Source: a virus
Reading direction: 5' to 3' (one strand)
Virus record (IMG/VR): IMGVR_UViG_3300012147_000095
Coordinates: 1 to 22,471 of that record
Length of the DNA: 22,471 nucleotides
Notes under the pieces: generated by a model
Databases searched by the model: none
The model's input: only the letters and a program-made list of their open reading frames with translations
What the model was told of the DNA's origin: nothing
Part shown: positions 812-21,471 of the stretch, piece by piece
How the letters are laid out: each line of letters starts with the position of its first letter
Position numbering within the stretch: the stretch's first letter is position 1
Program-made: the position numbers and the translations under genes

Positions 812-2308
812 CTATGTTTGTTCTTTTACATTTATATTTATATTGTGAAGAGTGTACGTAAACTCTTCCTGATTATATATTCTAACACGCATGAAAAAAT
901 GTTTCAATGTGTAATTTTTAGTTTTCTTATGCTGTAGATAATCGACAATATCAAAGACTGTAACAGCATCGTCTTTACCGTCTTTTCTTAATCCGCGTCC
1001 TATAGACTGTAGGAGTCTGATAATAGACTTTGTTCCACTGCCAAATATGAGATATTGCAGATTCTTAATACTAATGCCTGTAGAATACACCCCATAAGTC
1101 GCAACGATTACCACACCATCGGTACTCTGTGTAAGTCTTCTGACTTCGCTTCTTTGTTCCTTTTTTGTACCGCCGTAAACAAGATACACAGTCTTCTTGC
1201 TGGTCTTTAAAAGTTTTTCGTATATGGTCTTTGCATGGTCAATACCATTAACCAATAGTAAGGTATTCTTATTATCGGGAAGACCATTAACCATTTTCAT
1301 CAGAAAGTCGTTTCTTTCTTCCAATTCTGATAAAGCCTTAACTTCTTCATGATATGTACTACCAGACATAAGTTTGCGGTAGAGTTCATCATACTTTAAA
1401 ACAATACATTTAATTTTTAAGTCTGAGACAATTTTTCTATCCATCAACTCTTTTGTTTTTGCAGTTCTCAATACTGGTCCGCATAAACCCTCGATAATCA
1501 GTTTATTATAATGAATGTCATCAAGTGTGCCAGTCATACCTATACGATATATACAACTATCAGCCGATTCTAATATACCTTTCAAAGAATTGGCCCGAGC
1601 CTCGTGCGCTTCATCTACGATTATCATGCCAAACTGTCTGAAGTATTTTTTAGGATTCTGGTAGACACTTTGCCAAGTTGTAATTACAACTCTTTTTTTA
1701 GTGGTCTTTTCCACTCCAGCATGTTGTGTATGACAATGTTTTTCTATATCAAAGCTTGGGTCATACTCTTTAAACTCTTCAATAAGCTGTTCAACCAAAT
1801 CGACTCTAGGTACAGTGATAAGAATCTTATCATCAGAATCTGCATATCTATGTAAAAAGTATCTAACTAAGACATATGACAGAAGACTTTTACCGCTTGA
1901 AGTCGGAGAAAGAAGCGTAACTCTTTTGTTTTCTATACAATGCTGTATGGCAGTCTTTTGAAAATCATGCTCTTTGAATGGTAACTTAATACCAGCAAAA
2001 AACGTATCAAAATCAAACGTAGACTTTTCAAGCTTCAAAGACTCTTCAATATTTAAAGAGTATCCCCGATCATTACAAAATTTGATTACATAAGGTAGTA
2101 AGCCTTTATAGAGTCTTTGTGTATTCAAATTAAAGATTCTAATTCTACCGTCCCACATTTTAGCCTTTACTTTAGGATTAAAACGGGCATTCTTAATTTC
2201 AAATGAAAAATAGTCGTGAATCTCTGAAAGAATCCCACGACTATTGCTATCTATTGCGATATAGACTTCATTCTGTTCAAAGACTTGAACATCGTATATT
2301 TTATCCAC
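812..2308 (-). CDS. uvsW: UvsW-like superfamily 2 DNA/RNA helicase
   Basis: A 498-residue ATP-dependent helicase (T4 UvsW is about 500). It has an N-terminal accessory region with KMWDGRIRIF, a Q-like motif HDFQK (about 114-118), Walker A SPTSSGKS (about 134-141), DEAH box VDEAHEA (about 231-237), motif III MTGT (about 258-261) and a C-terminal motif VI QSIGRGLRK. In T4, UvsW unwinds branched DNA and R-loops, ending origin-dependent replication and promoting recombination-dependent replication; that role is transferred by homology. The start is GTG, and it overlaps the uvsY end by 8 bases, so translation is probably coupled. The uvsY-uvsW order matches T4. Confidence 0.93.
   Translation of the reverse strand: MDKIYDVQVFEQNEVYIAIDSNSRGILSEIHDYFSFEIKNARFNPKVKAKMWDGRIRIFNLNTQRLYKGLLPYVIKFCNDRGYSLNIEESLKLEKSTFDFDTFFAGIKLPFKEHDFQKTAIQHCIENKRVTLLSPTSSGKSLLSYVLVRYFLHRYADSDDKILITVPRVDLVEQLIEEFKEYDPSFDIEKHCHTQHAGVEKTTKKRVVITTWQSVYQNPKKYFRQFGMIIVDEAHEARANSLKGILESADSCIYRIGMTGTLDDIHYNKLIIEGLCGPVLRTAKTKELMDRKIVSDLKIKCIVLKYDELYRKLMSGSTYHEEVKALSELEERNDFLMKMVNGLPDNKNTLLLVNGIDHAKTIYEKLLKTSKKTVYLVYGGTKKEQRSEVRRLTQSTDGVVIVATYGVYSTGISIKNLQYLIFGSGTKSIIRLLQSIGRGLRKDGKDDAVTVFDIVDYLQHKKTKNYTLKHFFMRVRIYNQEEFTYTLHNININVKEQT
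835..842 (-). promoter_or_regulatory. T4-type late promoter for the 334-804 gene
   Basis: The minus strand has TATAAATA inside the last codons of uvsW. Predicted transcription start is near 828 and the ATG is at 804, a typical late-leader distance. Confidence 0.6.
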
Positions 2309-3833: not shown

Positions 3834-4481
3834 TTAAATGAAGTCTTTTAAGTCTGCAAAAGGAAAACAGCGAATTGCTGAGTCTCTATTTAGATTGAAA
3901 ATACCTTTGCGAATTTTTGAAATATTATTGAAGCCCGGAATCATCACAGTGTCGTATATATCAGTGCGTGTTTCTCTTCGGTGGTCTTTATGCCACTGGG
4001 CTTGTTTCGTTTTTGAGTTTAAGTCGTAGCCTATAAGGATCAACTGTTTATAGCCTACCTGATGGGCAATATTTATAAGCTGATGACCAGCGTTTGATCC
4101 TTCGATTGTGCCTACAGTCTCTGAAAGACTGGCAGATTCTTTACCTTTAGTTTTACAAACAAAAGGCGTGACTCTAGGATATTTATTCCAGTATTGTATA
4201 TTAGCCTTACACCCCATGCTTATATAGCCATCAAAAGAGTTTTCTACATCGTGTTCTTTATCTGTATGCCATTCCCACCAAATTTGATCTGTAAAATGTA
4301 AAAGAATCGCATTAGGGAATAGTTTATATGCATTGTTTGTTACATATACGTCATGTTGTGTAAGGATAGAAGAGTCTGGGATAAGCTTAGTGACACTGGG
4401 CCCGCCGCCTATGAGAAAGCAAGAGTCTGAACCCTTGCTTTCTTTTAGATTATTAATAAGTTTAAGCTTTGAGTCTGTCAT
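3834..4481 (-). CDS. DUF115 / MptE-like or sialyltransferase-fold protein
   Basis: About 215 residues from ATG 4481; an upstream in-frame GTG at 4496 would add five residues but has its purine-rich site too close. The key motif is FLIGGGPSV near the N-terminus, a nucleotide-binding loop shared by DUF115 (MptE-like) proteins and GT42-type sialyltransferases. Next come VYVTNNAY, a DQIWWEWH segment and a late TIEGSNAGHQLINIA-QLILIGYDL stretch matching the second half of that fold. The role could be sugar transfer, possibly to DNA, virion or cell surface, but no substrate is evident. It overlaps the upstream DsbA-like gene by about 20 bases. Confidence 0.62.
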   Translation of the reverse strand: MTDSKLKLINNLKESKGSDSCFLIGGGPSVTKLIPDSSILTQHDVYVTNNAYKLFPNAILLHFTDQIWWEWHTDKEHDVENSFDGYISMGCKANIQYWNKYPRVTPFVCKTKGKESASLSETVGTIEGSNAGHQLINIAHQVGYKQLILIGYDLNSKTKQAQWHKDHRRETRTDIYDTVMIPGFNNISKIRKGIFNLNRDSAIRCFPFADLKDFI

Positions 4482-4764
4482 AGAGTAGTTCGACACCTTC
4501 TTGTTGCACTTGCATCTCCGCGAGTTTTTCAGGCGATTTCATAATCTTTGCGACTGCGCGTGAGACTTTTGGATGAATGCCGTGAGACTCTTTTAATTCT
4601 TTAAGCACATCTTTGATAAGCTCGCGCTCTGTGTCAATAGACTCTAGGCTTGCAACGATATTATTCAAGCGGTCTTTAATAGCCTGAATTTCATTGTTCT
4701 TAGAGTTTTTAACTGTTTTAGTTGGGGCTGTGTCGTTTAGAAAGTTTTCTACTGCGTTACTCAT
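4462..4764 (-). CDS. DsbA-like small double-stranded-DNA-binding protein
   Basis: A 100-residue, mostly helical, charged protein. Its C-terminal half (ELKESHGIHPKVSRAVAKIM then a VELLYDRL end) resembles T4 DsbA, an 89-residue protein that binds late promoter regions. It also resembles the GapR/DUF2312 helical fold. The N-terminal 25 residues are Asn/Thr-rich and look disordered. A strong sigma70-like promoter at 4800-4828 and AAGGAAA upstream of ATG 4764 suggest it heads an early or constitutive leftward transcript. The DNA-binding role is inferred from the family. Confidence 0.66.
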   Translation of the reverse strand: MSNAVENFLNDTAPTKTVKNSKNNEIQAIKDRLNNIVASLESIDTERELIKDVLKELKESHGIHPKVSRAVAKIMKSPEKLAEMQVQQEGVELLYDRLKA

Positions 4765-4799: not shown

Positions 4800-4828
4800 A
4801 ATATACGTTATATGTAGGATAGTGTCAA
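4800..4828 (-). promoter_or_regulatory. Sigma70-like promoter for the DsbA-like gene
   Basis: On the minus strand, TTGACA (4828-4823), a 17-bp spacer and TATATT (4805-4800). Start is expected near 4793, about 29 nt before ATG 4764. It lies directly after the terminator hairpin of the small-RNA unit. Confidence 0.72.
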
Positions 4829-4831
4829 GTA

Positions 4832-4870
4832 TAAAATGAATGTTTTTTCTGTTGCTAAGGAAAACATTCA
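4832..4870 (-). terminator. Intrinsic terminator of the small-RNA unit
   Basis: A perfect 10-bp stem (4870-4861 with 4846-4837 on the minus strand) with a 14-nt loop is followed at once by TTTTAT. It would end leftward transcripts just before the promoter of the DsbA-like gene. Confidence 0.65.
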
Positions 4871-4955
4871 AAACTCCGAAAGACTTTTCGCTGTTTGATC
4901 CGTTAGGACTACGCGGCTACTTTGTAATTCATACGTTCATTTGTGTTTGCGTATG
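4837..4955 (-). ncRNA. Candidate stand-alone small RNA of about 120 nt
   Basis: A promoter (4962-4990) and an intrinsic terminator (4832-4870) enclose about 120 nt with no normal gene. Predicted local structure: CATACG/CGTATG (4955-4950 with 4935-4930); a short GUCC/GGAU hairpin near 4909-4898; a tight CGAAA-AGTC-TTTCG hairpin (4890-4877); then the terminator stem. A short frame at 4950-4909 reads Ala-Asn-Thr-Asn-Glu-Arg-Met-Asn-Tyr-Lys-Val-Ala-Ala-stop, with a second in-frame stop two codons on. That resembles a tmRNA proteolysis tag, but no tRNA-like ends are present. The alternative is an ordinary regulatory RNA or an untranslated leader. Confidence 0.5.
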
Positions 4956-4959
4956 CTTA

Positions 4960-4990
4960 TATTTATACATTAGTTTATACTGAGTGTCAA
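4960..4990 (-). promoter_or_regulatory. Combined sigma70-like / late promoter for the small RNA
   Basis: On the minus strand, TTGACA (4990-4985), a 17-bp spacer and TATAAA (4967-4962). The -10 is also a perfect late element TATAAATA (4967-4960), so it could serve both the host sigma and a phage late factor. The -35 overlaps the stop codon of the 4987-5199 gene. Start is expected near 4955. Confidence 0.68.
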
Positions 4991-5199
4991 GTGTTATTTG
5001 ATAAAAAATCTTTAAAAGTCACGATATTTTCATTTAATTTTTCAACGGTGGCTAAAACCGTATCTTTTTCAGCGTCATTTCTAAAAAAGATACTCCAGTT
5101 ATCAATCCCATTGCGATAAGACCTAGCCCAGTTTATTTTATTATCATCAAGATAATTCTTAATTTTAATTCTGTTTCTAGGCTTTGTGTGTATTAGCAT
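4987..5199 (-). CDS. Small unknown protein (70 aa)
   Basis: Not recognised. It is basic and polar with the segment NRIKIKNYLDDNKINWARSY, then a hydrophobic strand WSIFFRN and a C-terminal helix; the pattern suggests a small alpha/beta domain. ATG 5199 follows the upstream gene's TAA with AAATAAGAG acting as the ribosome binding site, the same stop-to-start junction as at 3204, so it is coupled to its neighbour. Its stop codon overlaps the -35 of the small-RNA promoter. Confidence 0.68.
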   Translation of the reverse strand: MLIHTKPRNRIKIKNYLDDNKINWARSYRNGIDNWSIFFRNDAEKDTVLATVEKLNENIVTFKDFLSNNT

Positions 5200-7407: not shown

Positions 7408-8132
7408 TTGTGATACTCCCTCACTCTTTGTATAGACTGTTTAAAATAGTTTATCGGAGACTCTATGAAGACTTGAGCATCAGCCATAGCCCCATTATCC
7501 TTAGCCATAATAATAACAGTCTGTTTAGGCACAATGCCATACATTTCAGAGAACATTAAAGAGTATAAACAAGTCTGGATAAAATAGTCTTCAATCCATT
7601 CTTTTCTTTTTTCTTTGATTGTGGTCTTAAAGTCTATAATAGACAATACGCCTTTATATTCTGCCACACAATCTACGCGCCCTGCAATTTGCATTCTATT
7701 GGAAAATAATACACCCTCTAGGTTGTGTATATTATTAATATTCTTTAACTCTGGATATACCTGTCTGAATAGATGATACTCGTTTGTGTTTACTTTTGGT
7801 ATGGTGTATTCTTCACCTTTTATAAAAGACTCGCACAGATTATGTAAAGTATTACCTCTATCTCCAGCATCGTTTTTAATCTTTTCTGCTTCTTCTACGC
7901 CAACTCGCTTTATCCAGTCTTTAAGAATTGCTTTCTTTTTTTTAGACTGTGTGGCAGATAGTATAGTCGTTACAGAAGCGTACTTACTGCCATCAGGAAC
8001 GGTGTAATGTCTCCCGCTTGTAAGTGTGGTACTGTCACACTCCAACTGAGAATCGTATGCATCATTAAAGACATATTCAGGTCTTGTAAAATCATATTCT
8101 TTCTTTCTAAAATTATCTCGAAATTGACTCAT
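7398..8132 (-). CDS. PD-(D/E)XK nuclease, Cas4/RecB/MGME1-like
   Basis: About 244 residues from ATG 8132. An in-frame ATG at 8177 gives 259 but lacks a ribosome binding site and overlaps the upstream gene by 65 bases. Motif order fits the exonuclease family: RGNTLHNLCE (helix with a metal-site residue), AGRVDCVAEYKGVLSIIDFKTT (the G-x-x-D then D-x-K catalytic core, about 170-190), and a downstream YFIQTCLYSLM matching the conserved Gln motif. T4-like marine phages commonly carry such exonucleases for DNA processing or host DNA degradation. A Lys-rich patch (QSKKKKAILKDW) probably contacts DNA. Confidence 0.82.
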   Translation of the reverse strand: MSQFRDNFRKKEYDFTRPEYVFNDAYDSQLECDSTTLTSGRHYTVPDGSKYASVTTILSATQSKKKKAILKDWIKRVGVEEAEKIKNDAGDRGNTLHNLCESFIKGEEYTIPKVNTNEYHLFRQVYPELKNINNIHNLEGVLFSNRMQIAGRVDCVAEYKGVLSIIDFKTTIKEKRKEWIEDYFIQTCLYSLMFSEMYGIVPKQTVIIMAKDNGAMADAQVFIESPINYFKQSIQRVREYHKWT

Positions 8133-14056: not shown

Positions 14057-14204
14057 ATCCACCTTCTAATAATGTTTTTGCAAGCCTTTTAAAGCCTGAT
14101 AAAGATGCCGCCCGTGAATTAAGTTTAAAATAGTTCCCATCGACATATACAGTATGGTACAACTTTGCGGCAAGCTTGTCAATATCTTTTTGTGTTATAT
14201 TCAT
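14034..14204 (-). CDS. Small unknown protein (56 aa)
   Basis: A short gene read from ATG 14204, which overlaps the stop of the CCA-adding enzyme gene (ATGA junction). The protein begins MNITQKDIDKLAAKLYH and contains YFKLNSRAASLSGFKRLAKTLL; it is basic, mostly helical and unrecognised. The 4-base overlap upstream and the in-line ribosome site for the next gene inside its end make it a credible coupled gene. Confidence 0.6.
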   Translation of the reverse strand: MNITQKDIDKLAAKLYHTVYVDGNYFKLNSRAASLSGFKRLAKTLLEGGYDANNGV

Positions 14205-15367
14205 TTTACATCAATTCTTTCTAATAATTGTTTTTTGGTGAATGTATATCTACTCGTTTTCCATAGATATTTTAGGTGTTTAAGCGCGTTTCCTAATTCT
14301 TGACCCTCTACATATCCAATTTCTTTTAAGTCTAAGCCTGAAATCGGAAAAGGCTTCATAGTAGACTGAATATGGTCCATATGTTCGACCAGATGTTTGT
14401 TATGAAAATACTCACACGCCGCTTCGATAATATCAACATGCATTCCCTCGTAGACTAAGTCTGTGACAACACTACTATTAAAAGAGTCTTGCGTATAGTC
14501 TTGTGTCAGATAAAGAAAGTCTAACCCAAACTCTTTCTCATGATTTGACAGTTTATAAGCCTTACAGAATTTTGTATAGTTGCGCGAGTTGCCATACAAG
14601 CACGCCATGACAATTGACGGATATGCTTCTATAGTATGTGTAGATAGGTTTAAGATACGGCTATTTTTTAAAACTGGTAAACCAAGTGTGTAAGATATAT
14701 CCAATTCTTGACATATTGCCAGAAAACATGATGCATTCTCTGGATTATCCTCAAAGACTTTAGTAAATTCTTGCCAGACTCTTTCTACAGATACTTCGGC
14801 AATTAATGAGGCATATTTCTTAACAGCCTTCATAGAGGCTTTATCATACTCTCCACCAGAAAACTTACATAGCATACGCACGTAGCGCAAAAGACGTAAA
14901 GAGTCTTCTCTAATTCTGCGCTCAGGATCGCCAACAAAGACCACTTTTTTATCTCTAAGGTCTTTCAAGCCTTCATAGGGATCAATCAACTCTCCGAGGT
15001 GTGACATATACATTGCATTGAAAGTAAAGTCTCTACGCGAAGCGTCTACATATACATTATTGGTATATTTAACTTCAGCGTGACGACCATCGCAATTTTC
15101 ATCATATCGAAAAGTTGTAATCTCATAAGACGCTGGAAAATCATAGTGATAAAGAGTAACCGTACCATGCTCTATACCAGTCTCTATGACATTCCACTCA
15201 GTATCTTTAAAGAGTGCAAGTGTCTCTTCAGGTGTAGCATCGGTTGCAAAGTCGTAATCTTTTGGTTTGGTATTATTACACATATCGCGTACTGCGCCAC
15301 CACACAACAAAAGTTGGTAATCAGCCTTGTTATAGACTTCATATAGAGTCGTAAAAGCTTTGTTCAT
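14201..15367 (-). CDS. cca: CCA-adding enzyme (tRNA nucleotidyltransferase, class II)
   Basis: A 388-residue enzyme. It has the nucleotidyltransferase signature LLCGGAVRD (20-28), catalytic DYDFAT (37-42), a third carboxylate-containing RRDFTFNAMY, and the RIREDSLRLLRYVRM template motif near 160. The length is usual for bacterial CCA or poly(A) polymerases of this class. It adds or repairs the 3' CCA of tRNAs; a poly(A) polymerase role is the alternative. It lies in the same gene run as a peptidyl-tRNA hydrolase, GroES and a D-armless tRNA-Gly, which suggests phage control of tRNA quality. It has an AAAGAG ribosome site. Confidence 0.9.
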   Translation of the reverse strand: MNKAFTTLYEVYNKADYQLLLCGGAVRDMCNNTKPKDYDFATDATPEETLALFKDTEWNVIETGIEHGTVTLYHYDFPASYEITTFRYDENCDGRHAEVKYTNNVYVDASRRDFTFNAMYMSHLGELIDPYEGLKDLRDKKVVFVGDPERRIREDSLRLLRYVRMLCKFSGGEYDKASMKAVKKYASLIAEVSVERVWQEFTKVFEDNPENASCFLAICQELDISYTLGLPVLKNSRILNLSTHTIEAYPSIVMACLYGNSRNYTKFCKAYKLSNHEKEFGLDFLYLTQDYTQDSFNSSVVTDLVYEGMHVDIIEAACEYFHNKHLVEHMDHIQSTMKPFPISGLDLKEIGYVEGQELGNALKHLKYLWKTSRYTFTKKQLLERIDVK

Positions 15368-15382
15368 AATGTAATCTCTTTC

Positions 15383-15832
15383 TTATGGATATAGATTAAA
15401 ACTATCTAGTGCTGAAGTGAAAATAGTATCGTTTCTATCTTCGGCAAAAACCCACATACAGGTTATTAAGGGAATTAAATGTGTTACTTGACCATCGCGG
15501 ACTGGATAAGTATCGTCTACGATAATACCACTATTTTTTTGAAAGAACAAGAACCTTTCGTTTAAATTTAAAATAGTTTTTTCATCTATACCATCGAGAA
15601 TAATCGTTGTTCCGAAAGTTCTTGCTTCAGACTCATTTAACCATTCATTATACTGATATAGTGTATCTACGTGTTCGTCACTGTCATTAATTTCCTGAAT
15701 AGAATTAAGTCTATCCATAGTCGCCGTAAAATCATTAGCCGCGTGACAGCACTGCGCCGCAAGCTTTCCAGCATTCATAGAAGCTAAATCACTTCGCGCA
15801 AGGATATATAAGACTGGTTGTGTATCCATCAT
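15383..15832 (-). CDS. Peptidyl-tRNA hydrolase 2 (Pth2)-like protein
   Basis: A 149-residue protein. It begins VLYILARSDLASMNAGKLAAQCCHAA, matching the Pth2 core (R-x-D-L, G-K-x-A-A-Q, then Ala/His). It ends with a strand pattern GIIVDDTYPVRDGQ-THLIPLITCMWVF like the Pth2 D-x-x-x-T-x-x-x-x-G-T region. Pth2 releases peptides from stalled peptidyl-tRNA and is mostly archaeal and eukaryotic, so a phage copy is notable. Some Pth2 catalytic details are changed here, so activity is inferred. It overlaps the groES-like gene by 4 bases. Confidence 0.8.
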   Translation of the reverse strand: MMDTQPVLYILARSDLASMNAGKLAAQCCHAANDFTATMDRLNSIQEINDSDEHVDTLYQYNEWLNESEARTFGTTIILDGIDEKTILNLNERFLFFQKNSGIIVDDTYPVRDGQVTHLIPLITCMWVFAEDRNDTIFTSALDSFNLYP

Positions 15833-16134: not shown

Positions 16135-16200
16135 TGGAGCGTCATAAGAGATTCGAACTCTTACTTATTGAGTGGAAGTCAAACAAAACACTTATAACGC
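16135..16200 (-). tRNA. tRNA-Gly(UCC)-like RNA lacking a D arm
   Basis: The acceptor stem GCGTTAT (16200-16194) pairs with ATGACGC (16145-16139), followed by discriminator U and encoded CCA (16135-16137). The anticodon stem TTTGA/TCAAT has one T-T mismatch and a 7-nt loop C-T-T-C-C-A-C with anticodon UCC. The T arm is canonical (AAGAG-TTCGAAT-CTCTT). U73 with G1-C72, C2-G71 and G3-C70 fits glycine identity. Only 10 nt (16193-16184) separate the acceptor and anticodon stems, too few for a D arm. It is therefore an unusual truncated tRNA; a decaying pseudo-tRNA is the alternative. Confidence 0.72.
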
Positions 16201-18584: not shown

Positions 18585-18611
18585 GATAAAATTCGTCTTT
18601 TTTTATCGTTT

Positions 18612-18674
18612 AATATCAGATAGTTACAGAGACAAAGAGCGTTTAAAATTCACTTATGGTAGGGTAGTACCATA
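18612..18674 (-). repeat. Structured repeat, copy 2 (minus orientation)
   Basis: On the minus strand, a perfect 7-bp hairpin TATGGTA/TACCATA (18674-18655) is followed by the conserved core (18656-18612) with TTTGTCTCTGTAACTA. This copy is in opposite orientation to the 261-321 copy. An upstream arm (18706-18692) can pair with the core around an internal loop, echoing the long stem of copy 1. It lies between the terminator at 18681-18706 and the promoter at 18554-18584. Confidence 0.65.
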
Positions 18675-20375: not shown

Positions 20376-20483
20376 TTAGATAAGTATGATTATTAGTATA
20401 ATAATAGGTATTATAAGTGGAATTAGAACAATATACAAGTCTTTATTAGACTCTTTAGATTTTCTCTGAGCATTCCGCATCAT
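20376..20483 (-). CDS. Very small membrane protein (about 35 aa)
   Basis: Read from ATG 20483 (or the adjacent ATG 20480). A polar Lys-rich first 18 residues precede an almost pure Ile/Leu segment, YIVLIPLIIPIIILIIILI, to the end. AAAGAAG lies close upstream. It overlaps the 3' end of the ParB-like gene by 29 bases and fills most of the gap before the 20346 gene. A holin-like or regulatory peptide is possible; chance AT-rich translation cannot be excluded. Confidence 0.45.
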   Translation of the reverse strand: MMRNAQRKSKESNKDLYIVLIPLIIPIIILIIILI

Positions 20484-21471
20484 AAGCTTCTTTAAGTATT
20501 CGATTACCCGTTGCGTGCATACCGCGCAATCCTGCAATATGGTCTGGCAGTGGTACGTTTTCCATAGACTCAAAAGCAAAAACACGCCCGTTAATTCTCG
20601 AAAAGAATTTGCCTAATGCTTGTCCAAACTTTGCCTTGCCTACAACTTCAATCTTATTCATTCCCGGCCAAGCTGTATCACGCTTAGATGTACCGATAAG
20701 CATAGCGTCTTTTTTATGCGGTACATATAGAATAGAGTCTTGATCGTATTTTGCGCCAAGTCTTCGTAAGTCTTGCTTAAGAGTTCCGGACTTTTTATGG
20801 TCTGCCACGAAGAACGAGACTTCGCCTACTTCTTTTTCTTTTGGCGTACCTAGATTTTCAATATATGATCCTTTAACCTGTGTAACAGAGTAACCGCGCG
20901 TAAGCAAAGCCGCGAGAAGTTCTTTTGTTCTGGTCATATTCTCCGAACGCTTAAACTCTCCACGAAAGGCTGAGATAGACCCTACATCATAGGCTTCGAT
21001 CTTAGTCCACAATCTTGATAGTGATGATTCCATAATGTATGATTCTTTATACTCTACTTGTTTAAAGTCTTTGAATAGCTTTATAAGCTTATCAAAATCC
21101 ATATCTATCCTCATAACTATAGCAGACTTTTTCAGATATTGCAAGCTAATAATGCGATGATTGCCATCTAATACATAATTATCTTTGGTGATATAGACGA
21201 TCTTATTCTTAACCTTGTCTATATTCTTTACCAAGGCTTCGATTTTATCTTTATGAAAGTTAGCTTGGGCGAATTTAAGTTTAAGACTGTCTACAGTCTC
21301 TTTCTTATATTTTACGCCATTCTCATCAAGAAAAGCAAGAATATTTTTAGTATTCTTCTCTGTAAGTTGCGGCATATTAAGTCTGGAAATATTTTTAGAC
21401 GATCTCTTAGCTGAAAGCATAAGTTCATCAATACTACCAGACTCTTTAATATATTCTTTAAATGATTTCAT
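20455..21471 (-). CDS. ParB/Srx-like plus DUF3293-like protein
   Basis: A 338-residue protein. It starts MKSFKEYIKES, a motif common at the N-terminus of marine T4-like phage proteins. Residues about 90-115 (ITKDNYVLDGNHRIISLQYL) match the ParB/Srx motif with D-G-N-H-R. After a linker, FRGEFKRSENMTRTKELLA, YSVTQVKGSYIEN and VGEVSFFVADHK (about 170-225) resemble a DUF3293-type nuclease-like domain. The combination suggests a DNA- or nucleotide-handling enzyme, inferred from domains. AAATAAGACT precedes ATG 21471. It lies just upstream of the DNA-modification genes. Confidence 0.72.
   Translation of the reverse strand: MKSFKEYIKESGSIDELMLSAKRSSKNISRLNMPQLTEKNTKNILAFLDENGVKYKKETVDSLKLKFAQANFHKDKIEALVKNIDKVKNKIVYITKDNYVLDGNHRIISLQYLKKSAIVMRIDMDFDKLIKLFKDFKQVEYKESYIMESSLSRLWTKIEAYDVGSISAFRGEFKRSENMTRTKELLAALLTRGYSVTQVKGSYIENLGTPKEKEVGEVSFFVADHKKSGTLKQDLRRLGAKYDQDSILYVPHKKDAMLIGTSKRDTAWPGMNKIEVVGKAKFGQALGKFFSRINGRVFAFESMENVPLPDHIAGLRGMHATGNRILKEAYDAECSEKI

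Follow-up and report, generated by a model that had tools for sequence, protein, structure and literature searches.

A self-closed tRNA-like domain and a separate tag-encoding small RNA in a T4-like phage: a candidate tmRNA in two unlinked parts

In a 22,471-nt stretch of viral DNA (IMG/VR record IMGVR_UViG_3300012147_000095; hereafter, the window), we found a small unit on the minus strand (4990–4837) that probably represents the mRNA-like half of a tmRNA encoded as a small RNA of its own, with the tRNA-like half encoded as a separate 70-nt RNA 956 nt upstream; together, the two RNAs would tag proteins in trans with host AlaRS and SmpB (we place the probability of this reading at about 0.55). 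The reading is drawn from a complete tRNA-like domain (TLD), a reading frame of tmRNA type, an A at position −4, a hairpin matching the 3′ part of tmRNA coding pieces, and the recurrence of the same pair in a second viral contig, L033. A preliminary description of this DNA had suggested a two-part tmRNA acting in trans; the idea of two parts is strongly supported, and the two may act in trans.

The window is part of a T4-like phage and carries all of its main genes on the minus strand, including UvsW, UvsY, tail tube and PhoH, for which the nearest isolates (~41–45% identity) include phages of Pelagibacter, Methylophilales and marine Synechococcus. A DNA-level search of phage records, for which the entire region served as query, gave no match, and an SmpB gene was not found in the contigs searched; the host enzyme would be needed. 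An assembly error is made less likely by a second contig, which has the same 1401 bp around the tag RNA unit without a difference, yet departs from the window elsewhere by ~20 substitutions and an indel. On its upstream side the unit meets a 70-aa ORF (4987–5199, minus strand) that ends at the −35 box of the tag RNA promoter, so there is no room for a TLD half beside the tag RNA; downstream, a promoter-like TTGACA-N17-TATATT (11/12; 4800–4828, minus strand, starting at 4828) directly follows the unit, as had been noted before, and would serve the gene of a T4 DsbA-like transcriptional regulator (4462–4764, minus strand; Pfam PF11126, E = 1.6e-5; phrog_639). Elsewhere in the window we observed a translation-related phage set, in which a CCA-adding-enzyme-like protein gene (14201–15367, minus strand; PolyA_pol head domain) adjoins a PTH2 peptidyl-tRNA hydrolase gene (15383–15832, minus strand), and an Rfam tRNA match (16138–16200, minus strand; 37.8 bits), uncalled by ARAGORN, that resembles a tRNA with a reduced D arm and the loop CTTCCAC (anticodon TCC, possibly Gly). 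A 76-nt intergenic element (18586–18661) has a second copy ~24 kb away in this phage (L309:6052–6127; 96% identity), and a 338-aa protein (20455–21471, minus strand) carries an S-adenosylmethionine-lyase family domain (PF23780).

The tag RNA promoter (4990–4960, minus strand) consists of TTGACA (4990–4985), a 17-nt spacer and TATAAA (4967–4962), exactly as previously described, with the T4-late-type element TATAAATA at 4967–4960 overlapping the TATAAA; a scan of both strands for TTGACA-N16-18-TATAAA gave this promoter as the sole exact match in the window. From the promoter spacing, the 5′ end of the tag RNA is predicted at ~4955–4954, at CAUAC/GCA, with a predicted unit length of ~120 nt. The CAUAC (4955–4951) stands immediately 5′ of the resume codon and provides an A at −4 (the A86 equivalent) and a C at −1, and the corresponding alignment column of phage permuted tmRNAs has a nearly invariant A. 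The tag frame (4950–4909, minus strand) runs from the resume codon GCA (4950–4948) through a final GCG to the stop TAG (4911–4909) and encodes ANTNERMNYKVAA; with the second in-frame stop, TAA at 4905–4903, it is the Ala-Asn-...-Val-Ala-Ala frame with two stops that the preliminary description had pointed out. A tag frame, a resume determinant and a degron-like end, as in tmRNA, are therefore all present. Simple folding, which has no pseudoknot model, revealed only hairpins and no pseudoknots around the tag. Residue 7 is Met in both split tags (window 4950–4909, and L033), so that translation of a very short peptide (MNYKVAA and MLSLAA, respectively) could begin at an in-frame AUG.

The 3′ module (4877–4837, minus strand) comprises GGAGTT (4877–4872) and a hairpin (4870–4837) with the 14-nt loop CCUUAGCAACAGAA. 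This hairpin had been taken for an intrinsic terminator; instead of a G+C-rich stem, short loop and U run, we found an A/U-rich 10-bp stem, the long loop and a weak U tail, uncalled by the terminator scan, and the structure fits better with the hairpin found at the 3′ end of tmRNA coding pieces. A sequence model, R1, made from 38 other phage tmRNA coding pieces (window phage and L033 left out), matched the window at 28.7 bits (E = 3.3e-8), with the 3′ module alone aligned and the tag part outside the match. The GGAGTT...CTTNGCAACAGAA motif helped choose the 38 pieces, and its conservation inside that set is therefore partly a product of selection; it is present in at least 119 IMG/VR contigs, mostly, among those read, at the 3′ end of a permuted tmRNA coding piece. 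GGAGTT with a hairpin of loop CTTNGCAACAGAA was also observed alone, 3′ of protein or tRNA genes (L174, L196, L235, L236, L245, L247, L254, L266, L269, L272 and the contig of L126, L308). The module is possibly a general phage RNA 3′-end element; since it also stands alone, it is by itself no proof of a tmRNA, and the hairpin is weakened as tmRNA-specific evidence. The lone modules would suit an ordinary sRNA or 3′-end element whose tag-like frame arose by chance, a caveat already attached to the tag match in the preliminary description, but we judge this highly improbable: the window contains a single instance of the pattern Ala-Asn-...-hydrophobic-Ala-Ala-stop, against ~0.005 matches expected per strand from Markov shuffles, the frame adjoins the hairpin as in tmRNAs, and it recurs beside a TLD in L033.

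The second RNA (5976–5907, minus strand; 70 nt), upstream of the tag unit on the same strand, reads GGGATGG-ATTCAGGATCGA-CTGT-CAGC-ATT-GCTG-A-ACAG-GAC-GGGGG-TGCAAAT-CCCCC-CCATTCC-ACCA and, judged by sequence, is a complete tmRNA TLD. All 7/7 acceptor pairs (GGGATGG/CCATTCC) are formed, with G-U at pair 3 (G3-U70); the D-loop AGGATCGAC, a T arm and an encoded CCA are present; and in the fold the P2 hairpin (CUGU-CAGC-AUU-GCUG-A-ACAG) closes on itself with a three-nucleotide loop. A covariance model, R2, made from 19 other TLD-only RNAs (again with the window phage and L033 left out), matched it at 52.6 bits (E = 2.3e-10), so the tRNA-like domain earlier placed ~1 kb away proved to be a complete TLD. 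ARAGORN called no tmRNA at the window or L033 pair, and Rfam cut-offs also missed both, the window scoring 12.9 against 50 bits with RF01849 and 14.9 against 47 bits with RF04321, below the gathering score. The arrangement is neither one molecule nor two pieces joined by TLD pairing, as the TLD is self-closed and has no conserved pairing with the tag RNA, nor is it laid out as a permuted two-piece gene, in which an acceptor piece and an intervening sequence accompany a coding piece that opens with the 5′ TLD half. The longest runs of pairing between the TLD and the tag RNA were not significantly above those in shuffles, and the window and L033 pair at different places; as neither conserved pairing nor pseudoknots were seen, we find no visible tether between the two RNAs.

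Viral contigs commonly contain TLD-only RNAs (L048–L166, L294), which are almost never accompanied by a tag RNA; phage DS6A provides the published case of such a CDS-less tmRNA (PMC4131195, PMC11915505). Members of the class here have 66–80 nt, a G3-U70 acceptor, a TCGAC D-loop, a T arm and a P2 closed by a short loop. A TLD pattern silent on the 5′ acceptor strand gave 119 matches, 109 of them with all seven acceptor pairs and G-U at pair 3, and 48/50 TLD-only contigs were without any coding-piece match. In aligned TLD-only RNAs, P2 covaries strongly, closing on itself; the aligned sequences were picked for full G-U acceptors, so that acceptor counts are given by selection and P2 counts are not. 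ARAGORN made no tmRNA call at the eight TLD-only loci tried. Several candidates were discarded: L049 is an ordinary tmRNA by ARAGORN; L056, L104 and L153 pair poorly in the acceptor as closed TLDs and were taken as permuted tmRNAs matched by chance; and the Arthrobacter match L167 showed no TLD on inspection. L301 (~1500–1580, minus strand), a 78-nt tRNA-like RNA with G3-U70 and E = 2.9e-7 to the TLD model, uncalled by ARAGORN, was likewise seen, when inspected, not to be a closed TLD of the kind described here. The window TLD belongs to this class, being closed by P2 and having no tag in the same RNA, and the nearby tag RNA sets it apart from nearly all others.

A scan for TATAAATA...GCAAAC...GCNGCNTA returned 41 contigs, mostly chance matches or ordinary permuted tmRNAs (the latter including L014, L017, L030 and L043, which were rejected); L033 was the exception. 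As L033 was originally found via its tag, its independent fact is the TLD, a closed domain at 8118–8046 (minus strand) with G3-U70 that matched R2 at E = 1.1e-11. Its P2, by hand alignment, is CUAU-AGUU/AACU-A-AUAG with the bulged A placed as in the window, whereas the minimum-energy fold pairs the region differently. Approximately 118 nt after this TLD lies GCAAACGAT...ANDNTNMLSLAA with a stop, then GGAGTT and a hairpin as in the window, and R1 matched this coding piece at E = 4.8e-13 over positions 3–96 of 99. L033 and the window have just two genes in common, those for PhoH (41%) and for an amidase (35%). A narrow pattern for a GGATCGAC-type closed TLD with a GGGTGC T arm found exactly two IMG/VR viruses, the window phage and L033, both with a tag RNA; a broader pattern added one TLD-only RNA, L294, with no tag. 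Across 516 kb around ~100 TLD-only loci, the frame AN..(hydrophobic)AA-stop was found at the window and L033 only (0.4 expected), in both cases followed by the GGAGTT hairpin. With a TLD and a tag RNA occurring together in an otherwise nearly unrelated phage, the layout appears not to be a one-off. The suggested check that the frame is kept while flanks vary holds only in that L033, whose flanks are different, retains a tag, a resume element and the hairpin; just two independent cases speak to it.

Strong inhibition of tmRNA by a TLD-like molecule has been reported (PMC4131195), so the TLD could have a function without a tag RNA. The main rival explanation holds that it is a DS6A-type decoy, occupying SmpB and blocking host trans-translation, and that the tag RNA is a permuted tmRNA remnant that does no tagging, or a mere promoter–terminator spacer. 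The TLD-only counts given above and the reported inhibition both favor it, but we find it less likely than a two-part tmRNA, as two phages with almost no common genes retain an intact resume element, a VAA or LAA tag end, the stop and the hairpin even though a TLD half no longer adjoins them, a retention that speaks against a remnant, and in the window a strong promoter is dedicated to the tag RNA.

The two-part layout is probably derived from a permuted two-piece tmRNA, judging from 12 phage records searched (relatives of the window phage or L033, and a few weaker comparators). The coding piece was matched in seven of them, Melnitz, Mosig, HTVC008M, RHph_I1_18, RpAliso, RcXuper and DLP_6, nearest isolates included, and all seven have an ordinary permuted two-piece tmRNA by ARAGORN and Rfam. 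R1 and R2 matches in seven isolates, DLP_6 and RpAliso among them, were set aside as ordinary permuted tmRNAs. L033 has a 15-bp inverted repeat directly 3′ of CCA, as in permuted tmRNA genes (Melnitz, UAAACACUU/AAGUGUUUA; L281; L284), and therefore looks like a permuted gene with its 5′ TLD half relocated ahead of the acceptor piece. Synteny with Melnitz ssrA, which lies upstream of gp33, was rejected, as the downstream window gene is DsbA-like and not gp33.

Compared with known systems, the pair resembles permuted two-piece tmRNA (alpha-type; Melnitz ssrA, PMC9004378; RF01849, RF04321) in its resume codon context, tag type, GGAGTT and hairpin with a ..CAACAGAA loop, and promoter, Melnitz ssrA having TTGACA-N17-TATAAATA just 5′ of the gene. 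In permuted tmRNA, however, the coding piece holds the 5′ TLD half and pairs with the acceptor piece, whereas here one RNA has the whole closed TLD and the coding RNA carries none. That difference also bears on whether the tag RNA might partner an acceptor, or a complete tmRNA, from another place in the phage genome or from the host, the TLD being unrelated to it. The known contigs cover part of a genome of probably ~140 kb or more, and related phages have a complete permuted tmRNA; nevertheless, we hold such a partner to be very unlikely, since the tag RNA is without the 5′ TLD half by which a coding piece pairs with an acceptor piece, and no further R1 or R2 match was found in an overlapping 31 kb contig. 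The DS6A TLD-only tmRNA, by its description, has little beyond the TLD, as here, but no tag RNA is reported with DS6A (PMC4131195, PMC11915505), whereas one lies within 1 kb here. The tmRNAs of mitochondria and plastids that have no tag frame (PMC11915505) share a TLD molecule with no mRNA-like part; in contrast to the present pair, no separate tag RNA is reported for those.

We tentatively suggest, at somewhat less than even odds, that the two RNAs are the halves of one tmRNA that stay separate and unpaired and act sequentially on the stalled ribosome, the template being taken in trans from a small RNA that starts at the resume element. Host AlaRS would charge the TLD, host SmpB would take the charged TLD to the stalled ribosome, and the nascent chain would pass to the TLD; the tag RNA, predicted to begin at a minimal resume element, would then be loaded as a surrogate mRNA, and the addition of ANTNERMNYKVAA up to the stop codon would release the ribosome and send the protein to proteolysis. 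For E. coli tmRNA, the five nucleotides 5′ of the resume codon set the frame, with A86 at −4 nearly invariant, and the TLD alone with SmpB can do the tRNA step (PMC2481249); by analogy, a TLD RNA and a small RNA starting at the resume element would contain what these studies ask for. With no pairing beyond chance and no pseudoknots by simple folding, recruitment of the tag RNA would need another way.

In all tmRNA forms that we found described, the tag template lies within, or is base-paired to, the TLD-bearing molecule, and in the papers searched we met no previous account of a TLD and a tag RNA as separate molecules. How the resume codon is located by the ribosome remains a matter of debate. 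A natural split, if true, would mean that SmpB, a TLD and a resume element of approximately five nucleotides may suffice, and would offer a two-part tool for testing that sufficiency; if the TLD is only a decoy, the result would still point to TLD-only RNA as a means that phages commonly use to counter ribosome rescue, the leftover half being recognizable next to the TLD.
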